Shown here piece after piece: positions 3,344 through 62,483 of a stretch of 64,000 nucleotides of DNA (positions are counted from its first letter, which is position 1; every line of letters starts with the position of its first letter). The DNA is from Natrinema gelatinilyticum (lineage in GTDB: Archaea; Halobacteriota; Halobacteria; Halobacteriales; Natrialbaceae). The stretch lies in the NCBI RefSeq assembly GCF_024266705.1, contig NZ_CP100756.1:1054001-1118000 (forward strand), read 5' to 3'. The notes under the pieces are model-generated. The model searched no databases, was not told the DNA's origin, and saw only the letters and a list, made by a program, of their open reading frames with translations. Position numbers and translations under genes: made by a program.

Positions 3344-4522
3344 ATGGAGATCACCGACGTCCGCGCGGTCCCGCTATCACACCCGATTCCGGAGTCGGAG
3401 CAGCATCGAACCGATCTCGGCACCAAGGTGAAAAACGACGCGCTGCTGGTGTCCGTCGAGACCGACGAAGAGATCACCGGTATCGGCGAGGCGCTCGCGA
3501 TTCCGACCAGCGTCCCGACCGCGATAAAAGCGGTCATCGAAGACGACCTGAAGCCGATGTTGATCGGCGAGGACCCGACGTACACCGAACGGCTCTGGGA
3601 AAAAATGTACAACGGTCCCCGGTTCGCCCCGGCGATCGACCGGGGCTACTCCCAACCTCGAGCAGATCGGCGCGGAATCACAATGGAAGCGATTGCGGGC
3701 GTCGATATCGCGCTGTGGGACGTCAAGGGCAAGGCACTCGGCGAACCGGTTTACGAGCTACTCGGCCCGGTTCGGGACTCGATTCGGGCGTACGCAAGCG
3801 GCGGCTGGGCACCCGGTGAGGAGGCCGAAACGGAACTCGGCGAGTACGTCGACCAGGGCTTCGACGCCGTCAAGATGCGCGTCGTCGGCGAGGGAGGATT
3901 CTCGATCGAGAAGACGCGCATACGCGTGGAGGCGGCCCGGCGCGGAATCGGCTCCGAGACCGATCTCATGCTCGACGCCCACGGATCGCTCGATGCGCCG
4001 ACAGCGATCAAACTCGCTCGTCGACTCGAACAGTACGATATCGCGTGGCTCGAGGAACCGGTCTCGCCGGACAATCACGACCGGCTCGCAGAGGTGCGAC
4101 GCGCGACCGAGATTCCGATCGCCACGGGGGAAGTCGAACACACCCGGTTCGACTTCCACGACCTCTTCGCACACGATGCGGTGGACATCGTTCAACCGGA
4201 TCTCTGTCGAGCCGGCGGATTCACCGAAGTGCGCCGGATCGCTGCACTGGCATCCGCCGAAGGTGCTCGGATAGCGCCCCACGCGTTCGGTTCCGCGGTC
4301 CTCTTCGCTGCGGGCATGCACGCCGCGTTGGCGTTGCCGAACTGCCATCTCCTCGAGGTTCCACAGGGCGATACGACGTTGCTGGACGAACTGTTCGAGG
4401 AATCGTTCGACGTTCGGAACGGGACGGTTCACGCGCCGGACCGTCCCGGACTTGGGTTCACGCTGTGCGACGACGTCTGCGACCGCTTCGAGTACATCGA
4501 GGGGCCCGAATACGTGTTCTGA
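3344..4522 (+). CDS. Enolase-superfamily dehydratase/racemase (mandelate racemase/muconate lactonizing group)
   Basis: 392 aa, full length for the family. Residues 1-125 form the capping domain and the rest the TIM barrel. Visible residues are K177 in KMR (general base position), metal ligands D211 (DAHG), E237 (WLEEP) and E263 (TGE), and H313 (APHA). These fit the mandelate racemase subgroup, which abstracts a proton alpha to a carboxylate. Members are usually sugar-acid dehydratases or racemases, but the substrate cannot be read from sequence. The ATG at 3344 is preceded by an AT-rich stretch (taatataata) about 55 bp upstream. The gene stands alone beside the IS630 copy, and no sugar-acid pathway gene is adjacent. 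Confidence 0.85.
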   Translation: MEITDVRAVPLSHPIPESEQHRTDLGTKVKNDALLVSVETDEEITGIGEALAIPTSVPTAIKAVIEDDLKPMLIGEDPTYTERLWEKMYNGPRFAPAIDRGYSQPRADRRGITMEAIAGVDIALWDVKGKALGEPVYELLGPVRDSIRAYASGGWAPGEEAETELGEYVDQGFDAVKMRVVGEGGFSIEKTRIRVEAARRGIGSETDLMLDAHGSLDAPTAIKLARRLEQYDIAWLEEPVSPDNHDRLAEVRRATEIPIATGEVEHTRFDFHDLFAHDAVDIVQPDLCRAGGFTEVRRIAALASAEGARIAPHAFGSAVLFAAGMHAALALPNCHLLEVPQGDTTLLDELFEESFDVRNGTVHAPDRPGLGFTLCDDVCDRFEYIEGPEYVF

Positions 4523-4774
4523 TACCGTCGGAGCTGACTCCCGTGTACGGACCGGAAGACTGACGCAGCGTGCGAAGATGTGGCCCATCGCTGCGTCGGC
4601 CAGTTCGAAATCGAAGCCATCGACGTACTCGCACAGGGAGGGGAACGCGTGCGGACCGCTCGAGGCCGTGTCGCTTCGCTCGGCAGTGACCGCGACGCTG
4701 TCGGTGTCGATCAAACGCGCGACGGCTGTCGAAAGTCGTCATCCGTCCGTTCTCCGGGCAGCGTCGCGTCTCGC
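4523..4774. other. Intergenic region between convergent genes, no gene seen
   Basis: The space separates the 3' ends of the enolase-superfamily gene and the RidA gene. Reading frames here have poor codon character and no recognisable protein. I see no convincing terminator hairpin. Confidence 0.5.
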
Positions 4775-28649: not shown

Positions 28650-30506
28650 ATGAGCAGCTACGATATCGAGCGGTATCTCAACGTCCGGAGCGCCTATGGC
28701 GCGTCGTTCGGACCCAAGGGGAAACGGCTCTCGTTTCTGATGGATACCACAGGAACCTCGCAGGTCTGGACGCTCGAGTCCGCACGCGCCTGGCCGGAAC
28801 AGCGAACGTTCTTCGAAGAGCGGGTGACGTTCGCCTCGTGGTCGCCCGAACGCACAGAGCTGATCTTCGGTATGGACGAAGGCGGTAACGAGCGCGCCCA
28901 GTTGTTCCGGTTAGACGCTACGACCGGCGAAATAACGAACCTCACCGCGACGCCCGACGCCAAACACCGCTGGGGCGGCTGGAGCGACGACGGTGACCGA
29001 TTCGCTTTCACCTCGAACCGCCGCGACGAGTCCGTATTCGACGTGTACGTCCAGGGTCGCGACGAGACCGGCGAGGACGCACAGCTCGTCTACGAGGGCG
29101 ACGGCTGGCTCTCGCTGTCCGGCTTTAGTCCCGACGACTCCCGGCTGCTCGTCTCGCAGGCGTACTCCAACTTCGACCAGGACCTCTACGTACTCGATCT
29201 CGAGGCCGACGTGACAGACAGAGAACACGTAACGCCACACCAGGGCGACGTCCGCTATCAGAGCGCGAGCTGGGCACCAGACAGCGAGGGAATCTACCTC
29301 GTTACCGACAAGGGCGAACACGGAGACGAGACGGAAGACGACGTCCGGACCGAGGCAGACACTCTCTATCTGGCCTATCTCGACCTCGAGAGCGGCGACA
29401 TTCAGACCGTCATGGACGGAGACGGTTGGAACGTCGACGGCATCGCCCTGGACGATAACACGGGCCGGTTCGTCTGCTCGCGAAACGTCGACGGGTACAC
29501 CGAGCTGACCGTCGGGCAGTTCGACGCCGACGATCCCACCGAGTACGAGACGTTTCCCGAACCCGCCCTGCCGGGCGGTATCTCCGGCGGCGTGAGCTTC
29601 GATCCGGACGCGGAGCGGTTCGCCCTCTCGACGACCGGCGACACAGTCAACACGAACGTTTTCGTCGTCGACATCGAAACCGGCGAAGCCGACCAGTGGA
29701 CGAGCGCGCCGACCGCGGGAATCCCTCGCGAATCGTTCGACGAGTCCGACCTCGTCCACGTCGAGAGTTTCGACGAGCTGGAGGTGCCTGGCTTTCTGTC
29801 CCTTCCCGACGGTCGCGAAGACGGGAACACACCCGTCATCGTCGACATCCACGGCGGTCCCGAGAGCCAGCGCCGCCCCTCGTTCTCGAGCGTCAAACAG
29901 TACTTCCTCGACCGGGGCTACGCGTACTTCGAGCCGAACGTGCGAGGGTCGTCAGGCTACGGCGCCGAGTACGCGGCCCTCGACGACGTCGAAAAACGGA
30001 TGCATTCGGTCGCCGACATCGAGGCCTGTACCGAGTGGCTCGCAGATCACCCCGCGATCGATCCCGACCGGATCGCCGCCAAAGGGGGCTCCTACGGCGG
30101 GTTCATGGTGCTCGCCGCATTGACCGAATACCCAGACCGGTGGGCCGCCGGGATCGACATCGTCGGCATTGCAAACTTCGTCACGTTCCTCGAGAACACC
30201 GGCGACTGGCGGCGCGAACTCCGCGAAGCCGAATACGGCTCCCTCGCCGATGACCGCGAGTTCCTGGCGGACATTTCTCCGATCAACAACGTCAAGAACA
30301 TCGAGGCACCGCTTTTCGTCCTCCACGGTGAGAACGATCCCCGCGTCCCGGTCGGCGAGGCCGAACAGATCGCCGATCGAGCCGCCGAGCACGGGGTTCC
30401 CGTCCGGAAACTCATCTTCGACGACGAGGGACACGGCTTCTCGAAGCTCGAGAACCGCATCGAAGCCTATTCCGCGATCGCAGATTTCCTGGACGAGCAC
30501 GTCTGA
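28650..30506 (+). CDS. S9 family prolyl oligopeptidase/acylaminoacyl peptidase
   Basis: 618 aa. Residues 1-365 form a beta-propeller with TolB-like blades (FASWSPERTELIF, RWGGWSDDGDRFAFTSN). Residues 375-618 form the alpha/beta-hydrolase catalytic domain with S481 in GGSYGG, D563 in GENDPR and H595 in EGHGF. These serine peptidases cleave short peptides after Pro or release acylated N-terminal residues in the cytoplasm. The stop codon is the first part of an 87-bp palindromic repeat, which probably ends the transcript. A tataacc element lies about 150 bp upstream. Confidence 0.92.
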   Translation: MSSYDIERYLNVRSAYGASFGPKGKRLSFLMDTTGTSQVWTLESARAWPEQRTFFEERVTFASWSPERTELIFGMDEGGNERAQLFRLDATTGEITNLTATPDAKHRWGGWSDDGDRFAFTSNRRDESVFDVYVQGRDETGEDAQLVYEGDGWLSLSGFSPDDSRLLVSQAYSNFDQDLYVLDLEADVTDREHVTPHQGDVRYQSASWAPDSEGIYLVTDKGEHGDETEDDVRTEADTLYLAYLDLESGDIQTVMDGDGWNVDGIALDDNTGRFVCSRNVDGYTELTVGQFDADDPTEYETFPEPALPGGISGGVSFDPDAERFALSTTGDTVNTNVFVVDIETGEADQWTSAPTAGIPRESFDESDLVHVESFDELEVPGFLSLPDGREDGNTPVIVDIHGGPESQRRPSFSSVKQYFLDRGYAYFEPNVRGSSGYGAEYAALDDVEKRMHSVADIEACTEWLADHPAIDPDRIAAKGGSYGGFMVLAALTEYPDRWAAGIDIVGIANFVTFLENTGDWRRELREAEYGSLADDREFLADISPINNVKNIEAPLFVLHGENDPRVPVGEAEQIADRAAEHGVPVRKLIFDDEGHGFSKLENRIEAYSAIADFLDEHV

Positions 30507-30589
30507 TACGGTCTGCTGTACCGATGTACCGGTGCGCCCGCAGGACGGTCGCGGTTGCACCGGCAATGACGTACTGGAGTCCGTATGAG
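30503..30589 (+). repeat. 87-bp palindromic stop-docked repeat, copy 1
   Basis: The unit starts CTGATACGGTCTGCTGTA and includes the TGA stop of the S9 peptidase gene. Its two ends are inverted copies of each other over about 18 bp (CATACGGACT-type ends), and inside lies CCGGTGC, a 21-nt insert with further pairing, and GCACCGG. The whole unit can fold into one long hairpin. The second copy is at 60760-60846 on the other strand with 79 of 87 identical bases. Flanking DNA beyond the unit is unrelated. It may be a MITE or a strong terminator. Confidence 0.75.
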
Positions 30590-30741: not shown

Positions 30742-31008
30742 TCGCCATTCAGACGATTGGTCTACCCCAAACGAGACGGTGAATCGGTCCTCGTCGTCGA
30801 CGACCTCGCCTTCACCGTCGAGGACGGCGAAGTGTTCGGCTTCCTGGGCCCAACGGTGCGGGGAAGTCGACGACGATCAATATGATACTCGATTTCGTTC
30901 GGCCGACGTCGGGCCGTGCGACAGTGCTCGGCCTCGACGCCCGGACAGACACCGACGAGATCCGCCATCGGATCAGTGTGCTTCCCGAAGGGGTGAGCGT
31001 CTACTTCT
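30742..31008 (+). pseudogene. Truncated ABC-transporter ATPase copy
   Basis: This is a degenerate partial duplicate of the ABC ATPase gene that starts at 31256. It begins at the counterpart of AIQTTGL, is out of frame in at least two places, and passes a Walker A region (gtgcggggaagtcgacg) before ending at VLPEGVSVYF. One base is missing just before Walker A and another indel lies near the start. The region after 31008 is unrelated and looks like a mobile-element end. Confidence 0.75.
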
Positions 31009-60759: not shown

Positions 60760-60846
60760 CTCATACGGACTGCTGTACATCATTGCCGGTGCGACCGCGA
60801 CCGTCCTGCGGTTGCACCGGTACATCGTTACAGCAGACCGCATCAG
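60760..60846 (-). repeat. 87-bp palindromic stop-docked repeat, copy 2
   Basis: The same unit as at 30503-30589, on the minus strand, 79 of 87 bases identical without gaps. It begins CTGATGCGGTCTGCTGTA and includes the TGA stop of the hydrolase gene at 60843. Its ends are inverted copies of each other and the centre has CCGGTGC/GCACCGG, so the whole unit can form a long hairpin. Confidence 0.75.
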
Positions 60847-62483
60847 TCGTCGACGAGTGGAACGCCGACGGTGAGGTCCTCCAAGAGCATGACTCCCGGC
60901 GTTCGGGTGGACCCGTGGAGCGGGAACATGTCCGAGGTCGCCGAAAGCGTCAGGAAGAGTGTCTCTCCCTCTCGGACGTCGGCAGCCACGCCGGGGAGTT
61001 CGATGGTCCGGTCGACGCCATCGACCGGCTCCGGCTCGTGGAGCGGCATCACGTTGTTCTGGAGCACCTGCGCCGTCGCAGGGGTCTCACCGTCCGAGAG
61101 CGCAGCGAACAGCCGTTGGTACACGTTCTCGGACGTGACGGTTGCCGAGAGGTCGGGAACGCCGGCAACCGTCACCGGCCCCTCGGCGAGCGGGAGGTGG
61201 AGCGGTGCGCCGGCACCCGTGGTCGTCGCCGCGATTCCGTCGTTGATGCTGTCGATGGCAAGACCACCGTCACCGTCACCAGTCACTTGCAGGTCCACGC
61301 CCCCGCCGATGGGTGTCCGGTCATCGACGTGCTCGACCGACACCGCTCGACTCCCCGATGCGGTGGCGAGCCGGTATCGTGCCCCGACCACGTCTCGCGC
61401 GTCGCCGGTGCCGTCGCGGACGTGCTTGAAGAACCGGAGTCGGGCACTGGCGAAATCGTTCGTCGGTCCCGACGGGTTCGTGTAGCTGATCGTGCCCGGA
61501 GGGAACGCGTTCGGGAGTGCGTGCCCACCGTTGTACCCGACGACAGCGCTGTTCGCGCGCGCCGCCTCGGTGAGTCCCTGCTCGAAGTTCTTCCACGCTT
61601 GGTTGAAGTTGAACAGGTTGTCGGAGAGTCCCTGCCCGAACAGCACCGGCACGTCGATTCGGACGCCCTCGTCGAGGAAGCCAGCCGGACCGTTGTCGCG
61701 CAACTTTCGCTCTGAGTCCGGTTCGCCGACGCTGTCGCCGTTGGGCCAGAGCCCGGTCGTCACGCTGTAAGCGAACGACTCGTGGATGTACCGAGGCACC
61801 ATCGACGAGCCGACGGCGTACAGCGCACCCAGCCAGGTGCTTCGCGGTACGTTCTCCGGGGCGAGCGACTCGGTCAGACCGAACCACGTAATCTGTGGAG
61901 CGAGTGCGTCGAACCGAGTGTAGCCCGTCTCCCGGGTTTCGGTGAACGCACCGACGAGTTGGTACGCGCCGCCGTAGCTGCCGCCCATCGCGAACACCAT
62001 CGGGTTGGCTTCCGTCGGAATCGGCAGGTCCGTCGCGCTGCGTGCGACCCAGTCCAGTCCGGCGACGTAGTCCAGCACCGCGATGACGTCCCGTCCCTCG
62101 CGGTCCGGCTCTTGGATGTGTGCCTGACCGCCGGACTCGCCGTGGCCTCGCTGGTCGAAGCTAAGGATGCCAAAGTCGGCGTCGAGTTCGGTCCGAAACG
62201 CCCCGTCGCTCGCAGTGCGCGACCCCGACCACCCGTGCGAGTGGAGAATCATCGGCACCGGGTCGCTGGCGGTGGCACCCGCCGGACGATACACGGTCGC
62301 AGCGATGTCAACCGGGTCGGCTGCCTCGTCACTTCGAATCGTTACGTCCTCGTTGGAGTGCCCGTCGGCGCTGACCGTTCCGCTGCTGCTGGCGATGCCG
62401 AGCGCCGTCCCGCCTGCTGCGGCGAGTGTGAGATACCGACGCCGTGTCAGTCCGTCTGTCGCTCTCTCGTGTTCACTGAACAT
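60843..62483 (-). CDS. Tat-exported CocE/X-Pro-type serine hydrolase
   Basis: 546 aa from the ATG at 62483. A Tat signal with LTRRRYLTLAAAGG (residues 12-25) shows folded export. The alpha/beta-hydrolase core has the nucleophile S169 in GGSYGG, an oxyanion strand HSHGWSG (81-87), and a likely catalytic His in NGGHALP. The C-terminal third is a beta-sandwich jelly-roll found in CocE/PepX peptidases and esterases. It may split X-Pro peptides or esters outside the cell. The stop codon is the beginning of the 87-bp palindromic repeat. Confidence 0.88.
   Translation of the reverse strand: MFSEHERATDGLTRRRYLTLAAAGGTALGIASSSGTVSADGHSNEDVTIRSDEAADPVDIAATVYRPAGATASDPVPMILHSHGWSGSRTASDGAFRTELDADFGILSFDQRGHGESGGQAHIQEPDREGRDVIAVLDYVAGLDWVARSATDLPIPTEANPMVFAMGGSYGGAYQLVGAFTETRETGYTRFDALAPQITWFGLTESLAPENVPRSTWLGALYAVGSSMVPRYIHESFAYSVTTGLWPNGDSVGEPDSERKLRDNGPAGFLDEGVRIDVPVLFGQGLSDNLFNFNQAWKNFEQGLTEAARANSAVVGYNGGHALPNAFPPGTISYTNPSGPTNDFASARLRFFKHVRDGTGDARDVVGARYRLATASGSRAVSVEHVDDRTPIGGGVDLQVTGDGDGGLAIDSINDGIAATTTGAGAPLHLPLAEGPVTVAGVPDLSATVTSENVYQRLFAALSDGETPATAQVLQNNVMPLHEPEPVDGVDRTIELPGVAADVREGETLFLTLSATSDMFPLHGSTRTPGVMLLEDLTVGVPLVDD

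Follow-up and report, generated by a model that had tools for sequence, protein, structure and literature searches.

The two palindromes in the window (the whole 64,000-nucleotide stretch of DNA analysed) that follow predicted serine hydrolase genes are among at least 98 copies of a 79-bp near-palindromic element in the home genome. The element is very probably a non-autonomous, MITE-like DNA transposon that is moved by a transposase acting in trans and has the target CGAC-TSA-GTCG. Its mobility, which the initial annotation had suggested, is supported by 3-bp target duplications, by the occurrence of its core in both orientations and by empty sites in relatives.

The palindromes had been described as two 87-bp copies, at 30503..30589 and 60760..60846, that differ at 8 of 87 positions and start one base ahead of the TGA of a serine hydrolase gene, in the same sense as the gene. 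Coordinates, difference count and placement all proved correct, and Pfam agrees with the prediction of both host genes as serine hydrolases. Both copies are, as described, imperfect palindromes, and fold as hairpins in the gene's sense (-40.7 kcal/mol with a z-score against shuffles of -3.5 for copy 1, and -48.0 kcal/mol with a z-score of -5.7 for copy 2). The DNA outside the repeat had rightly been called unrelated, the flanks differing from copy to copy. The 87-bp unit is too long: its first C and last G are host flank, and what remains is a 79-bp element between two TGA triplets. Its end motif, at up to three mismatches, has three matches in the window against 0.11 expected, and Rfam at its gathering score gave no match anywhere in the window. 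Just downstream of copy 1, at about 30800-30900, one frame reads FLGP and the following frame GPNGAGKSTT, suggestive of an ABC transporter ATPase gene with a frameshift. The features of the two copies and their host genes are as follows.

28650..30506, + strand: gene 1, a predicted prolyl oligopeptidase-family serine hydrolase of 618 aa that hosts copy 1 (ORF list; Pfam Peptidase_S9, 2.3e-47)
30504..30506, + strand: left TGA, which is the gene 1 stop codon and the left copy of the target duplication
30507..30585, + strand: copy 1 of the 79-bp element (TACGG...CCGTA), the best self-match in the home-genome search
30507..30520, + strand: left terminal inverted repeat of copy 1, TACGGTCTGCTGTA
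30530..30541, + strand: left arm of the copy 1 inner stem, the covarying helix (alignment columns 24-35)
30551..30562, + strand: right arm of the copy 1 inner stem (alignment columns 47-58)
30572..30585, + strand: right terminal inverted repeat of copy 1
30586..30588, + strand: right TGA, the second copy of the target duplication at copy 1
60761..60763, - strand: TGA, the other copy of the target duplication at copy 2
60764..60842, - strand: copy 2 of the 79-bp element
60843..60845, - strand: TGA, which is the gene 2 stop codon and one copy of the target duplication
60843..62483, - strand: gene 2, a predicted S15-family serine hydrolase of 546 aa that hosts copy 2 (ORF list; Pfam Peptidase_S15, 4e-12)

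A genome-wide search, which the initial annotation had proposed, yielded the family, and its members were mapped to predicted gene ends. Searching the home genome with copy 1 gave 122 first-look candidates, of which the best 40 were scored and all were matches. A pattern for the ends matched 198 times on both strands, as against 13 times for the reversed control, and places were obtained for 100 of the 198. On the fetched loci a paired-end regular expression, which has no bias towards TGA or TSA, returned 112 pairs; 98 were kept as copies and 14 dropped, a copy had to be 76-81 bp long or to have TGA on both sides, and its flanks had to include a TGA or match one of five listed triplet pairs. 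Most home copies are 79 bp long, of the form TACGGTCTGCTGTA...TACAGTAGTCCGTA (the ends, as sequence, being TACGGNCTNCTGTA), and at this length the element is short and has no transposase gene. The 14-bp terminal inverted repeats are paired in 87.4% of cells across 68 diverse copies. Two mini copies, of 33 bp (L372:5862) and 32 bp (L313:1352), consist of barely more than the two inverted ends and are still flanked by TGA. Two copies that lie 2 kb apart (L170:2436-2514 and 4481-4559) have the right flank GACACGAGGGCCAGC in common, and one of them is flanked by GAC at each end; the two have probably taken part in a rearrangement with each other. At L088:1419-1583 two elements stand back to back with one TCA in common, an arrangement that would result if the later element had inserted into the duplication left by the earlier one.

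Equal triplets were found on both sides in 87 of the 98 home copies (85 TGA, one TTA and one GAC), in 34 of 43 copies in relatives, whose loci are the best matches to the window copies, and in 75 of 105 in named genomes. Exactly three identical flanking bases are present in 67 of 76 copies from the home and related genomes, and more than three in none. The pattern used for the species genomes demands TSA on one side and the home end pattern favours TGA; given this bias, it is the equality of the two sides that is evidence, not the TSA on the demanded side. Relative to the TGA, the core points one way in 53 home copies and the other way in 29, with 2 of the 84 unclear, and in the named genomes the two orientations account for 34 and 33 copies. 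Because the core is found both ways, the TGA is not part of the element.

Insertion-free orthologues, whose comparison had also been proposed, exist, and their pattern shows insertion. In the closest relative (G018), which was the best-matching genome in all four orthologue searches, four out of four genes have a stop with a single TGA and no element; they encode PCNA, FtsJ, a phosphohexomutase (names assigned from Pfam) and the product of an unnamed conserved gene. At the end of the phosphohexomutase gene the home genome reads GCT-TGA-[79 bp]-TGA-GTCGGTGTTTCG and the relative reads GCC-TGA-GTCGGTATTTCG. When an empty site was sought for a fifth copy, the first at L153, the home locus was the sole match. 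The single TGA at the empty sites identifies the TGA repeat as a target-site duplication, and the element as mobile. The gene at L117 had been taken for a ribonucleotide reductase; Pfam gave no family for the 239 residues submitted, and the assignment was dropped.

The same gene ends are also occupied in other relatives. At the PCNA stop codon, which is TGA in 19 of 28 relatives, TAA in 8 and TAG in 1, the element is present in G002, G008 and G019, all of which have TGA, so that carriers make up 3 of 19 relatives with TGA versus none of 9 with TAA or TAG. The empty form occurs in G022 with the same flank as in G008 and G019, and pairs of the G008/G019 type may reflect one shared insertion event. 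The unnamed conserved gene has an element at its stop in G021 and G028 (2 of 21 orthologues), and the phosphohexomutase gene has a degenerate one in G021 (1 of 28), leaving out of the count a weak end-like match in G003 that has no partner at element length. The FtsJ stop carries the element in none of the 28 relatives. Downstream of FtsJ in G021 (L255) and G028 (L257) lies a different short palindrome, GTAGCAACTG...CAGTTGCTAC, which is absent in G010 and is perhaps a second short mobile repeat family.

At a depth of at most the best 14 candidates per genome, carriers comprised 23 of 28 same-genus genomes, 3 of 8 from other genera of the family and none of 24 from other families of the order, a patchy spread that counts for the mobile-element reading. 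Carriers among plasmid records were eleven Natrialbaceae and one Halomicrobium, and among the matches listed for species genomes were many Natrialbaceae genera, Halorientalis and Halococcaceae MAGs; the bacterial matches of the species-genome pattern look like chance. There was no match among 50,697 phage records. The end pattern also matched 22 viral contigs, none of which was counted as an element: 18 have an end without a partner, and 4 pass loose pairing without equal triplets or a palindromic core.

The description of the palindrome as docked on stop codons holds for about half of the copies and fails for the rest, with 47 of 98 home copies lying exactly on a predicted stop codon. The 85 home copies with TGA on both sides divide into 45 on a stop and 40 intergenic, with none inside a predicted gene. 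Gene prediction used a home-made codon model, and any short genes that it missed would make these docking counts less sharp. Copies lying mainly inside or far from genes, the pattern that the initial annotation had set against its reading, are not what is seen. After omission of 7 of the 148 copies in relatives and named genomes that were too close to a locus end, 34 of 43 in relatives and 48 of 98 in named genomes, with one on TAA excluded, were on a stop. We also checked the best places in 12 plasmid records, two of them without a usable gene table; in the other 10, whose tables are incomplete, a CDS ends exactly on the element's TGA in 4 and not in 6. Public plasmid annotation, which is independent of the home-made gene caller, therefore agrees in kind with the docking.

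The logo CGAC-TGA-G.CG is common to the 45 docked and 40 undocked copies, and with the strand symmetry of TGA and TCA it indicates the palindromic target CGAC-TSA-GTCG. The mean match to this motif (out of 8) is 4.60 at docked and 4.53 at undocked copies; other TGA stops average 2.67 and the remaining intergenic TGA sites 2.06, in a background of 544 kb of home sequence with 449 predicted genes (260 TGA stops, 3565 other intergenic TGA sites and 8463 in genes). The commonest pair of last codon and stop is GAC-TGA (34 of 434 stops); haloarchaeal gene ends of this kind resemble the target, which accounts for a good part of the docking, though not for the whole. When insertions were weighted by the motif learned from undocked home copies only, 15-20% of non-coding insertions were expected on stops, and 53% (45 of 85) were observed. 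Most promoter-avoidance effects disappear when the comparison covers just stops and the 150 nt that follow; the expectation then rises to 46% weighted by the motif (20% unweighted), a value that would be too high if some undocked training copies sit on uncalled short genes, and the observed numbers are 45 of 65 in the home genome (p 1e-4), 28 of 33 in relatives (p 4e-6) and 40 of 58 in named genomes (p 3e-4). An excess above the motif expectation thus remains. The home copy with TTA on both sides (L168) lies on the TAA stop of an opposite-strand gene, and the only other TTA/TTA copy seen, in a named genome (L313:4812), likewise lies on a TAA stop, a hint that the element may favour stop codons in themselves.

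Across genera the inner stem shows strong covariation. In an alignment of 68 of 87 non-redundant copies, 19 own-genome copies being excluded, the ends are conserved and the inner stem is variable yet paired, with 88.1% of cells paired over both helices. Both sides of a pair have changed in 159 cells versus 55.7 in shuffles, double changes occur in 18 of 26 pairs, and the covariation is 0.282 versus 0.128; none of 500 shuffles reached the observed value on any of five measures. In a slide control with the partner shifted, which keeps the relatedness of the copies where the shuffle control does not, pairing falls to 50.2% at most. Double changes affect 10 of 12 pairs in the inner stem and 8 of 14 in the ends, where most of the cells are at columns 6, 7, 9 and 14. 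Within the home genome, 79 of the 85 copies with TGA on both sides have a length of exactly 79 bp; among them we compared docked (42) and undocked (37) hairpins and found them alike in divergence, inner broken pairs (p 0.85) and folding energy (p 0.98), the docked copies having a mean predicted hairpin energy of about -42 kcal/mol. Of the 1.2-1.3 one-sided stem changes per copy in this genome, most (about 1.0) disrupt the pair. We infer that the hairpin is needed by spreading lineages and decays after insertion wherever the copy sits. In 26 of 79 home copies (for example L110:1436-1514) the 9-base loop at the centre is found in inverted orientation with respect to the arms, a count that was kept because 77 of the 79 give one arm call even though the arm-orientation index was poorly placed; this suggests inversion between the inner arms.

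These comparisons bear on the proposal of the initial annotation that the hairpin is selected as a terminator or mRNA stabiliser. In such a reading the hairpin at the stop codon would be a host-selected 3' element, acting as a terminator, an mRNA 3'-end stabiliser or a ribosome brake, and would be kept where it helps. Docking above the motif-based expectation would suit it, as would the orientation of the next gene, which is convergent at 27 of 46 docked copies versus 170 of 423 in the background (p 0.018); this bias would be compatible with a mild polar effect and also with plain avoidance of operon interiors. A braking role has a parallel in E. coli, where REPs lying no more than 15 nt from a stop codon stall ribosomes, according to work cited in an E. 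coli REP paper (PMC12306157, in its accessible part). The equal state of docked and undocked hairpins and the pair-breaking nature of most one-sided changes within one genome speak against selection by the host. Archaeal terminators depend on T-tracts, and this signal is absent: of 47 docked elements only one contains a run of at least four T, in the 100 nt that follow the element T-runs are no more frequent (9 of 47) than downstream of control stops (78 of 431), and a terminator scan found no terminator-like site at either window copy. With docked hairpins kept no better and almost no T-runs, the data lend no support to a terminator or stabiliser function for the host, and we consider a host-selected element highly improbable.

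The preferred reading, a MITE-like element moved in trans, would work as follows. A trans-acting transposase would insert the 79-bp element into the palindromic target CGAC-TSA-GTCG, and a 3-bp staggered cut with repair would restore the stop codon on the gene side; landing on a stop would leave the protein intact. GAC-TGA, that is aspartate and stop, is a frequent haloarchaeal protein end and half of the target palindrome, and may in this way turn gene ends into landing sites, where copies would survive purifying selection. The covariation of the inner hairpin suggests that it is the element, not the host gene, that needs it, and the hairpin would then serve the element's own mobility. We looked for the transposase in several ways. 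Among 203 end matches in 129 fetched stretches there was no transposon-length pair of ends with equal triplets, and inspection by eye of the ORF lists of L170, L328 and L363 showed no transposase-like ORF spanned by element ends, L328 and L363 being truncated copies that retain one end, still positioned on an ORF's stop codon. At 29 DDE_Tnp_1 loci, out of 243 matches in six genomes, the best end scores were no better than those of shuffles, and PF13586 had matches in none of six genomes. The home genome (G000) has 84 DDE_Tnp_1 matches, several with identical scores, and is thus IS-rich.

An ordinary MITE requires no more than its ends and would not be predicted to have a covarying inner stem, so this stem counts against the MITE reading, as does the fact that the searches described brought up no autonomous partner; the docking above motif expectation and the two TTA/TTA copies on TAA stops are hints in the same direction. 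The enzyme might instead recognise a single-stranded hairpin, as with integron attC sites and IS200/IS605, the TGA repeats arising by site-specific recombination at a TGA core with no staggered cut. A stem fold that is kept while its sequence changes is what such a folded-strand element would show, and the inverted loops would suggest passage through a hairpin or cruciform. Insertion in both orientations, a constant 3-bp repeat and a symmetric target are, however, the usual mark of a dimeric DDE transposase, and the two mini copies, which retain little besides their ends, are still TGA-flanked, although these may be later deletions; we judge this mode of movement improbable. It is somewhat less remote, if still rather unlikely, that a mobile hairpin is recognised by its fold and not by its inner sequence and has the stop codon itself (TAA or TGA) as its landing site, in which case every haloarchaeal gene end would be a potential harmless dock.

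In compact genomes a transposon must land without harming its host. For the MITE-like element, the target and the 3-bp duplication would combine to turn the stop codon into a safe harbour that repairs itself, with the aspartate-ending acidic proteome supplying the sites. The spread of the element across many Natrialbaceae genera, with hairpins on stops that include that of PCNA, amounts to a natural experiment on the effect of a stop-codon hairpin in archaea.

The element is a new MITE-like family of haloarchaea with a stop-codon landing habit; what is new about it is its target and its covarying hairpin rather than any function for the host. The initial annotation knew of no described haloarchaeal element of this kind, and the searched literature, which left ISfinder and most subscription papers outside, likewise shows no stop-docked one. 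As far as the accessible text of a review (PMC10969869) and of a haloarchaeal study (PMC3119063) goes, prokaryotic MITEs resemble the element in being short and non-coding with inverted ends and many dispersed copies, and in having a constant short target duplication and empty sites in relatives. The element differs from them in its exact docking on the stop codon in about half of the copies and in its covarying inner hairpin, and its partner transposase was not found. SMR-A and SMR-B of Haloquadratum walsbyi, as the available part of PMC3119063 describes them, are similar in size (about 80-110 bp), in their prominent inverted ends, in having no known transposon with the same ends and a mobilisation that is not understood and, for SMR-A, in a strong target preference; in the same text they have no target duplication and their targets are other mobile elements, whereas the present element makes a 3-bp duplication and its targets are gene ends. 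REP sequences are likewise repeated palindromes outside genes, some of them near stops, but in the accessible parts of PMC12306157 and PMC3733652 they measure 20-40 or 20-50 bp, as against a 79-bp unit that has a target duplication and starts in the stop codon. PATE and IS605-type elements have neither inverted ends nor target duplication, and the present element has both. The attC site of integrons is an imperfect palindrome near gene ends whose structure is kept while its sequence varies, and in these respects it is like the element. Unlike attC, the element has TACGG...CCGTA ends and direct target repeats and occurs as solitary copies behind core chromosomal genes.
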